Assembly (NCBI GenBank): GCA_017610265.1
Contig: JAFCCH010000008.1
Coordinates: 1-37,598 of the forward strand
Source of the DNA: Nitrososphaerota archaeon
GTDB lineage: Archaea; Iainarchaeota; Iainarchaeia; Iainarchaeales; GCA-2688035
Reading direction: 5' to 3'
Length of the DNA: 37,598 nt
Each line of letters begins with the position of its first letter. Position 1 is the first letter of the stretch. The notes below the pieces were generated by a model, which saw nothing but the letters and a program-made list of their open reading frames with translations, did not search any database and was not told the DNA's origin. Of this stretch, positions 17,072-19,066 are shown in pieces. The position numbers and the translations under genes were made by a program.

Positions 17072-18028
17072 TTAATATTCTTCCTCAAATTCCTTTTTAT
17101 TGTTATTCCCTTTGAACAAATCCATGCTTAAATACCTTTCTCCTCTGTCAGGCAAAACAGTTGCGATCTTGCCGTATTTTTTTGCTATTTTAAGCGCTAT
17201 AAGCATGTTTGCTCCGCTGCTTATCCCCACTAGAAGGCCTTGTTCCCTTGCCAGCTTTCTTGTCATCTCAACAGCTTCCTCGCTTTTAACCGTAAAAACT
17301 TCGTCAACTTTGTCCATGTTTATTAATTTTGGAATAAATCCGTCTCCAATTCCCTGAATCTTGTGTTCTCCAATTCTTGCGTTGCTGCCTCCAAACATTA
17401 CTGCTGCTTCCTCCGGTTCCACCGCGATTGCCTTAACTTTTGGATTGTGTTCTTTTATTACTTTTGAGATTCCCATCAATGTTCCACCTGTGCCAACCCC
17501 TGCAACCACTGCGTCAACTGCTCCAATTTCGTTTAGTATTTCTTTCCCTGTTTTTTCCTGGGCTTTCAAATTTGCTGGGTTGCTGAACTGTCTTGCATAA
17601 AATGTCTTTGGCTCCATGGCAAGTTCTTCAACCCTGCTTATGGCTTCTTTAAGGCTGCCGCTTTTTGATGTCAAAATAAGCTCTGCGCCAAAGGCCTTCA
17701 TAAGCTGCTTTCTTTCTTCACTCATGTTTTCAGGCATCACAATTTTTACCTTGTAGCCTTTTGCCGCGCCAACCATTGCCAGTGCAATGCCAGTATTGCC
17801 GCTGCTTGCTTCAACAATTGTGTATCCTTTTTGCAGCTCTCCTTTTTTTTCCGCTTCTTCAATTATTTCCAGGGCAATCCTGTCCTTTATGCTGCCGCTT
17901 GGATTGACGCTTTCAAGCTTTGCAAACACGTTTCCAATTTTGATTAGCGGAGTATTGCCTATTGCATTCAGTACAGAATTTTTTTTATTCGATACATTTA
18001 TCTCTAGTTTCAAAAAAACACTCAACAA
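17072..18028 (-). CDS. cysK: Cysteine synthase (PLP-dependent)
   Basis: NAIGNTPLIKI, NPSGSIKDRIA (PLP Lys), EASSGNTGIALA, GVGTGGTLMGISKVIKE, GIGDGFIPKL. Start is uncertain: only TTG codons in frame (18028 and others); an ATG at 17997 is out of frame by one base across an A8 run. Confidence 0.92.
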   Translation of the reverse strand: MLSVFLKLEINVSNKKNSVLNAIGNTPLIKIGNVFAKLESVNPSGSIKDRIALEIIEEAEKKGELQKGYTIVEASSGNTGIALAMVGAAKGYKVKIVMPENMSEERKQLMKAFGAELILTSKSGSLKEAISRVEELAMEPKTFYARQFSNPANLKAQEKTGKEILNEIGAVDAVVAGVGTGGTLMGISKVIKEHNPKVKAIAVEPEEAAVMFGGSNARIGEHKIQGIGDGFIPKLINMDKVDEVFTVKSEEAVEMTRKLAREQGLLVGISSGANMLIALKIAKKYGKIATVLPDRGERYLSMDLFKGNNNKKEFEEEY

Positions 18029-18050: not shown

Positions 18051-18071
18051 CTGCAAGCCGATGCTTAGCAG
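18051..18071 (-). promoter_or_regulatory. Hairpin overlapping the stop codon of the Cys-rich leader ORF
   Basis: Minus strand CTGCTAAGC-ATCG-GCTTGCAG: 8 base pairs with one bulged T and a 4-nt loop. The 5' arm contains the last Cys codon (TGC, most of it) and the TAA stop. Confidence 0.6.
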
Positions 18072-18118
18072 TAACAGCAACAGCAGCAATTGCATGGCCT
18101 TGCATTATTGGTTTTCAT
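18065..18118 (-). CDS. Putative polycysteine leader peptide upstream of cysK (MKTNNARPCNCCCCCYC)
   Basis: ATG AAA ACC AAT AAT GCA AGG CCA TGC AAT TGC TGC TGT TGC TGT TAC TGC TAA, read on the minus strand; 36 nt upstream of the longest cysK ORF start; TATA-like sequence about 25-30 nt before the ATG. Confidence 0.65.
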   Translation of the reverse strand: MKTNNARPCNCCCCCYC

Positions 18119-18154: not shown

Positions 18155-19066
18155 ATGAATTCGTCAAATGCTGAAAGCTGCCTTCTTGTAAAAACGGCTT
18201 CAGAAATTTCTCTGAAAGGCCCTTTTGTCAGGAAGTTTTTCACAAAAAAGCTTGTGCAAAGCATAAAGTTTTCTCTCAAGAAAAATAAGATTCCCTTTTC
18301 AGAAATTACCAGGGGTGGAGGAAGGCTTTACATCTACTGCGAGGAACCGGAAAAGGTTCAAACAGTTCTTTTAACTGTTTCAGGAATTCATGCAACCGCG
18401 GTCTCGCAGCATTTTAGAAAAGCAGACTATTCCCTAATGGAGGAATCTGTTCTTGTATTTGCAAAAAACCTGTTGAAAAAAGGCGATTCTTTTGCCCTTG
18501 ATGTAAGGGTTAGCAGTAACAAGGATTTTTCCTCAAAAGATCTTGAAAACAAATTAGGTGCAGTAGTGATGAAAGCCATTCCTGGCCTGAAAGTAAATTT
18601 AAGCAAACCAGACAAAAAAGTCCTGGTAGAAATTAGAACAAGGGATTTCTTTGTTTACGCTTTTGACAAAAAGGGTTTGGGCGGGCTTCCACTTGGAGTG
18701 GAGGGAAATGTTGCAATGTTCTTTGAGGGAAAGGAAGACGAGCTTCCAGCTGCGTTCCTTTTGATGCACAGAGGCTGTCACATTTTTCCAATTGTGAAAA
18801 AGATCACTCCTACAATTGAAAAACATTTGGCAAAGTTTATTCCATTCAATGATTATCGCCCTTTCATTCCAACAGAGAAAAAGGACTTGCAGAAACTCAT
18901 TGAGGAACAAAGAATCAAGGCAATTGCCACAGCTGACTCAAGCCTTGAAACTAAAGATCTTGTCTCCTATGAGGAATTCAACAAAGGAAGAAAGCTAGTT
19001 GTGCTAAGGCCGCTTCTTCTTTATCCTGCTGAAGCAAAAAAGAAGATTGAAGATCTTTTCAAATAA
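18155..19066 (+). CDS. ThiI-like THUMP-domain protein with degenerate PP-loop
   Basis: N-terminal ferredoxin-like/THUMP features (EISLKGPFVRKFFTKKLVQSIKFSLKK, RGGGRLYIYCEEPEKV, KKVLVEIRTRDFFVYAFDKKGLGGLPLGVEGNVAMFF). The SGGxDS PP-loop position reads FEGKEDE. Confidence 0.8.
   Translation: MNSSNAESCLLVKTASEISLKGPFVRKFFTKKLVQSIKFSLKKNKIPFSEITRGGGRLYIYCEEPEKVQTVLLTVSGIHATAVSQHFRKADYSLMEESVLVFAKNLLKKGDSFALDVRVSSNKDFSSKDLENKLGAVVMKAIPGLKVNLSKPDKKVLVEIRTRDFFVYAFDKKGLGGLPLGVEGNVAMFFEGKEDELPAAFLLMHRGCHIFPIVKKITPTIEKHLAKFIPFNDYRPFIPTEKKDLQKLIEEQRIKAIATADSSLETKDLVSYEEFNKGRKLVVLRPLLLYPAEAKKKIEDLFK

Follow-up and report, generated by a model that had tools for sequence, protein, structure and literature searches.

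A poly-cysteine leader ORF ahead of cysK points to a ribosome-read cysteine sensor in DPANN archaea

Our results suggest that a short open reading frame (ORF) ending in a run of cysteine codons is, with high probability, a cysteine sensor that is read by the ribosome and that heads an operon of cysK and tRNA-Cys. The ORF lies in a stretch of 37,598 nucleotides (contig JAFCCH010000008.1, hereafter the window), and the host is a Diapherotrites-type DPANN archaeon. An earlier note on this DNA had proposed an archaeal cysteine-responsive attenuator at this place. Its observation is confirmed, the archaeal setting included, and its interpretation is partly supported: comparative evidence supports the central idea of a sensor well, which cannot be said of the details of the switch.

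The earlier note described a 17-codon ORF on the minus strand with seven cysteines among its last nine codons, and direct reading shows both coordinates and codons to be right (Table 1). Such an ORF is unusual in its surroundings. Among the 419 short ATG ORFs in the window (6–40 amino acids), only three have three or more cysteines among their last nine residues, and the leader alone has CCC there. The TATA-like box sits at the leaderless distance that the note had claimed for it and predicts a transcription start at or beside the leader ATG. The gene downstream is a cysteine biosynthesis gene, as stated: it matches the cysK model, and its probable TTG start lies 51 nt from the leader stop. 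Behind it follows a tRNA-Cys gene, absent from the earlier note, which is probably co-transcribed with cysK. Rfam matches within the window are confined to tRNA, without a T-box structure. On the other side of the leader, a gene with THUMP and ThiI_fer domains is transcribed away from it. Only 36 nt separate the two, hence their promoters overlap. A sequence resembling this gene also lies upstream of the leader in two other loci (L002 and L009).

Table 1. Features around the leader ORF, in window coordinates.
Feature	Position	Strand	Remarks
TATA-like box TTATTTAAAC	18151-18142	minus	starts at -33 from the leader ATG; same sequence in L002
Leader ORF MKTNNARPCNCCCCCYC	18118-18065	minus	17 codons, ATG at 18118, TAA ending at 18065; no Shine-Dalgarno sequence, probably leaderless
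Cys codon cluster	18068..18094	minus	7 of the last 9 codons, TGC and TGT mixed, ends at the stop codon; direct reading; core CNCCCC retained in L002
Hairpin CTGCTAAGC-ATCG-GCTTGCAG	18071-18051	minus	covers the final Cys codon and the TAA; z -2.3 relative to dinucleotide shuffles, MFE about -12 kcal/mol
Weak SD-like GAGTG of cysK	18023-18019	minus	counterpart in L002 is GGGTGA
T7 tract	18018-18012	minus	runs into the cysK start codon; direct reading
cysK, cysteine synthase (PLP-dependent)	17072..18013	minus	TIGR01136 (cysKM) above cut-off; most likely TTG start 18013-18011
tRNA-Cys (GCA)	17066-16996	minus	5 nt after cysK; same order in L002 and L003
THUMP/ThiI_fer-domain gene	18155-19066	plus	

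The earlier note proposed to compare related genomes and to test whether the cysteine run and the stop are conserved while other residues drift. This is what we find in the nearest relative (L002), whose CysK is 89–90% identical to that of the window and whose leader is MNKVKAEKKCNCCCCH. From the TATA box through the next 20 nt the two are almost identical, the first half of the peptide differs, and the cysteine core and the stop are kept.

The pattern also recurs in three DPANN phyla. We gathered cysK loci from the window's phylum, the Nanoarchaeota (G098), the phylum that holds G096, a fourth archaeal phylum (G095) and bacteria, and called a leader any short ATG ORF with CCC among its last nine residues within 400 nt before cysK. 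If the phylum of G096 is taken as DPANN and that of G095 as non-DPANN, as we infer them to be from genome sizes, then leaders stand before 22 of 93 DPANN cysK loci, 0 of 30 other archaeal loci and 1 of 41 bacterial loci, and the single bacterial match does not end in cysteine. Within the three small-genome phyla the counts are 5 of 18, 15 of 50 and 2 of 25. About three quarters of the DPANN cysK loci have no CCC leader within 400 nt, some of them because the head of the operon is further upstream. Examples of leaders are MSGQDNKKKCTCKCCCCCCC (L009), MKPNQCCCC (L105), MQYNICCCC (L092), MTKTTCCCDCCCC (L119) and MLKAPCCCCC (L116), each followed directly by the stop. A candidate in L084 was dropped, as it overlaps a tRNA-like stretch.

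These numbers are far from what chance would produce. In an earlier set of 59 DPANN cysK upstream regions we observed 16 CCC-type ORFs, against 0.02 per set in dinucleotide shuffles. Control tiles from the same 59 loci contained two such ORFs in 776 tiles (0.15 expected against 16 seen; Fisher p 7e-18, a value not to be taken literally, since the sequences are partly related).

Two further observations concern loci without a poly-Cys leader. The cysK copies of L079, L080 and L188 lack one; their CysK proteins are 72–78% identical to that of the window, although the genomes belong to other phyla. This is closer than taxonomy predicts and probably reflects transfer of the gene between DPANN archaea, unless the sequences were misbinned. 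In L003, L011, L014, L195 and L213, the cysK start is met or closely preceded by the end of a short HTH-like ORF, which is perhaps an alternative regulator.

Nothing speaks more strongly for a cysteine sensor than the way the leader tracks the head of the operon, because neither chance nor a peptide function tied to CysK predicts such a placement. Where cysE precedes cysK, the leader stands before cysE (L091, L093, L120). In L106 it stands before a serK-like gene followed by cysK; the best match of this gene is the ADP-dependent serine kinase SerK, below the model cut-off, and it also matches the free serine kinase of PDB 5x0b. In L163/L107 the leader heads tRNA-Cys, cysS and cysK, and in L114 and L115 tRNA-Cys lies directly between leader and cysK. 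All genes headed by leaders (cysK, cysE, serK-like, tRNA-Cys, cysS) supply cysteine or Cys-tRNA. In L116 and L125 there are tRNA-like genes between leader and cysK that ARAGORN did not call and that are perhaps tRNA-Cys genes with introns.

The anatomy of 29 leaders tells us more about how they might be read. TATA-like boxes start between -33 and -25 from the leader ATG in 17 of them, compared with at most four in windows away from this peak. The strict TATA pattern peaks at the same distance as the box of the window, yet does not match that box itself. A Shine-Dalgarno (SD) sequence precedes none of the 29 leaders, whereas 17 of the 19 downstream starts have one. In 25 leaders a Cys codon stands directly before the stop. 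The ORFs are 6 to 33 codons long and contain 2 to 9 Cys, and nothing outside the Cys run is conserved. It is thus very probable that the transcript begins at the leader ATG or close to it, which would make the leader leaderless, and the Cys run has its place at the stop.

One could argue that the ORF encodes a functional Cys-rich peptide, for example one that binds metals or thiols, and is co-transcribed with cysK by chance. Cys-rich small peptides often bind metals, and the peptide is conserved in outline. Nevertheless, this is very unlikely: the wide range of lengths and Cys counts, and the lack of conservation beyond the Cys run, do not fit a functional product, nor does the position of that run directly at the stop, and leaders head cysteine or Cys-tRNA genes even where the first gene changes. 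It is even harder to believe in a chance ORF or a low-complexity TGY repeat in intergenic DNA. TGY runs are indeed common genome-wide, with 21 raw matches to TGYx4 in this genome, and a raw poly-TGY search of the phylum proved too unspecific to be useful as a leader finder. However, short ATG ORFs with a terminal Cys run show an enrichment of about 100-fold upstream of cysK, the antisense count for CCC is zero, and a TATA box accompanies these ORFs at a constant distance. Enrichment and operon-head placement already contradict chance.

An alternative that we consider improbable, if somewhat less so, is a translated upstream ORF that controls only re-initiation or mRNA stability, with no sensing of cysteine. 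The short distance between leader and cysK would suit it (51 nt in the window, and as little as 16 nt from stop to start in L126), as would the fact that no general RNA switch was found across leaders. It leaves unexplained, however, why the codons are Cys codons, why the genes supply cysteine and why leaders stand before tRNA-Cys.

A cysteine sensor would work as follows. The transcript would begin at or next to the leader ATG, such that a ribosome could load immediately. With ample Cys-tRNA(Cys) the ribosome would clear the Cys run, terminate and depart. With scarce Cys-tRNA(Cys) it would sit on the Cys codons with its footprint over the stop and roughly a dozen further bases, and a ribosome held in this way would lead to higher expression of the downstream cysteine genes. 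That the ORF is translated, that ribosomes stall on it, which way expression responds and how the output is produced are the parts of this model that we infer. In many leaders TTCT and CATTG/T stand right after the stop; in many of those from Nanoarchaeota, TTCT..CATTG falls within about 15 nt of it, a segment that would lie under a ribosome stalled on the final Cys codons. A TTCT(YT)CATTG-like motif directly after the stop is found in L092, L095, L096, L105, L115, L119, L123, L125 and L128.

How the stalled ribosome would be translated into expression may differ between lineages. The window has two traits of ribosome-mediated amino-acid attenuators: its short upstream ORF contains a run of end-product codons, and this ORF heads the operon. 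We found no pair of mutually exclusive terminator and antiterminator hairpins with a U-run before the first gene. The hairpin over the stop codon that the earlier note described is present in the window, yet it is not a general feature: a post-stop hairpin stands out in 4 of 29 leaders (L001, L005, L163 and L114, the window's among them), no general post-leader hairpin emerges across the 29 (mean z about 0), and L002 retains only the AAGC/GCTT core of the window's hairpin. The T7 tract that the note placed near the cysK start is likewise real, but it overlaps the likely TTG start and is not a separate terminator.

Masking of the downstream ribosome site fares no better as a general rule. Duplex energies between the post-stop segment and the downstream SD are weakly enriched over shuffles (overall p 0.03). 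Pairing beats shuffles in L009 (p 0.007; GACCTCTCT with AGAGAGGT) and L119 (p 0.012) and is marginal in L128; for L009 and L119, such pairing by the bases directly behind the leader stop speaks for translational control. A folding model with a stalled ribosome yields no general gain in SD exposure across leaders (p 0.83). We therefore rejected a general SD-unmasking model, as pairing is clear only in L009 and L119. Leaders directly before tRNA-Cys argue for control of transcription in those lineages, through read-through of early termination, because in front of a tRNA there is no ribosome site that could be masked. For the window, transcription termination and masking of the cysK ribosome site are both possible. 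We conclude that the sensor would be shared, and that the output may differ by lineage or use a signal outside the models tried.

Relatives of the window carry what could be a second layer of control. In these loci a short ORF with an SD and an ATG overlaps cysK at a Cys codon, with cysK in the +1 frame. Our scan, which covered three DPANN phyla and demanded a Cys codon in the overlap, detected such cassettes at 15 cysK loci (L004, L005, L012, L015, L081, L085, L095, L103, L104, L118, L195, L204, L205, L207, L212) and at 0 of 71 control loci. A 16th was found by eye at the serK-like gene of L106. In 12 of the 16, GGTGR stands at equal spacing before the Cys codon (GGTGRN-NNN-NNN-TGY), an element that the scan did not demand. 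Examples are GGT GGT TAT CGG TGC A (L104), GGT GAT TAT GCG TGT A (L085), GGT GAA TAT TTT TGC C (L195) and GGT GAA TAT CTT TGC A (L212). The cassettes of L012 and L015 read AAA CCC TGT T, without the SD element. Strict Cys-rich leaders are also present at seven of the 16 loci (L004, L005, L081, L095, L104, L207 and, at the operon head, L106), and weaker ones at L085 and L103. An RF2-type cassette was not found in the cysK of the window or of L002.

The simplest reading of the cassettes is RF2-type +1 frameshifting, in which a hungry Cys codon would take the place of UGA. Twenty DPANN cysK loci lack an in-frame ATG. Fourteen of these have a cassette, five belong to the window's family with TTG starts (L001, L002, L003, L011, L014), and one has a broken frame (L213). 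In L015 the open part of the cysK frame contains no ATG, GTG or TTG. Non-standard starts are a possible alternative to frameshifting; in L085 and L106 the downstream frame has an ATG within the cassette, and several other cassettes have a GTG. We dropped a reassigned CGG codon as the cause of the shifts, since CGG, though rare, is found in frame at these loci and the codon ahead of TGY at the junction is not constant. An overlap ORF in L203 was taken as chance, as it has no GGTGR element and its cysK has an ATG.

Searching 382 genomes with the pattern GGTGRTTATSSGTGY gave nine matches, five of which are cassettes already known before cysK or serK-like genes. The match in L181 is upstream of cysK but overlaps a chance-like stretch, and those in L179 and L187 look like chance. 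The remaining match belongs to L185, where around position 1500 two successive cassette-like stretches (GGTGGTTATCGGTGC and GTTGATTATCGGTGC) precede two small genes, possibly a pair of the toxin-antitoxin type, beside a tRNA-like stretch. Taken over the three phyla, we consider it rather likely that DPANN archaea gauge cysteine through codons in two layers: by leaderless poly-Cys leaders that head operons and, in the window's relatives, by RF2-like +1 frameshifting at a hungry Cys codon out of the short frame into the cysK or serK-like frame.

Both layers have bacterial counterparts. In bacterial attenuators of the trpL or hisL type, a leader peptide rich in the end-product amino acid precedes the biosynthetic operon of that amino acid. 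The DPANN leaders share this layout and lack a conserved terminator/antiterminator pair; archaeal RNA polymerase and termination differ from the bacterial ones. In E. coli prfB, which reads AGG GGG TAT CTT TGA C, the internal SD is in the same place as in the cassettes. The relatives' cassettes further share with prfB a short SD-started ORF, the fixed spacing of the internal SD, a slow A-site codon and a main ORF in +1, whereas the A-site codon is Cys (UGY) instead of UGA, the gene is cysK or serK-like and the host is an archaeon. For bacterial prfB (RF2), programmed +1 frameshifting relies on an internal SD, a slow A-site and +1 re-pairing (PMC5009743). According to the same 2016 review, no natural examples of starvation-driven frameshifting were known (PMC5009743).

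A close counterpart of the leaders is mycobacterial. Leaderless short ORFs with contiguous Cys codons stand there before cysteine-related genes (Canestrari et al. 2020, Mol Microbiol 114:93) and, in the passages of PMC9031893 and PMC13236596 that describe them, act by attenuation through ribosome speed set by cysteine supply. As far as those passages go, the window shares the leaderless short ORF and the contiguous Cys codons before cysteine genes; the leaderless trait appears here as TATA spacing and SD absence, with a predicted start site. DPANN differ by an archaeal promoter (TATA at about -30), by tRNA-Cys and cysS in the operons, by a Cys run that abuts the stop and by the Cys +1 frameshift layer in relatives. 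There is no sign of common descent between the two, and we claim none, as the ORFs are too short for homology. Judged by its sequence features, the system of the window would be an archaeal variant of mycobacterial poly-Cys leader attenuation. Open-access papers yielded no description of an amino-acid leader peptide from Archaea.

In many DPANN genomes, automatic annotation will probably overlook the leaders and give cysK a wrong start. The cassettes offer a testable case for whether hungry-codon frameshifting makes a protein that is needed in starvation. If our reading is true, the second layer would be natural starvation-driven frameshifting that makes a protein. And if the leader is common to three archaeal phyla with tiny genomes, then nutrients would be gauged by the reading of leader codons outside bacteria as well, and independently of the terminators that bacteria use.
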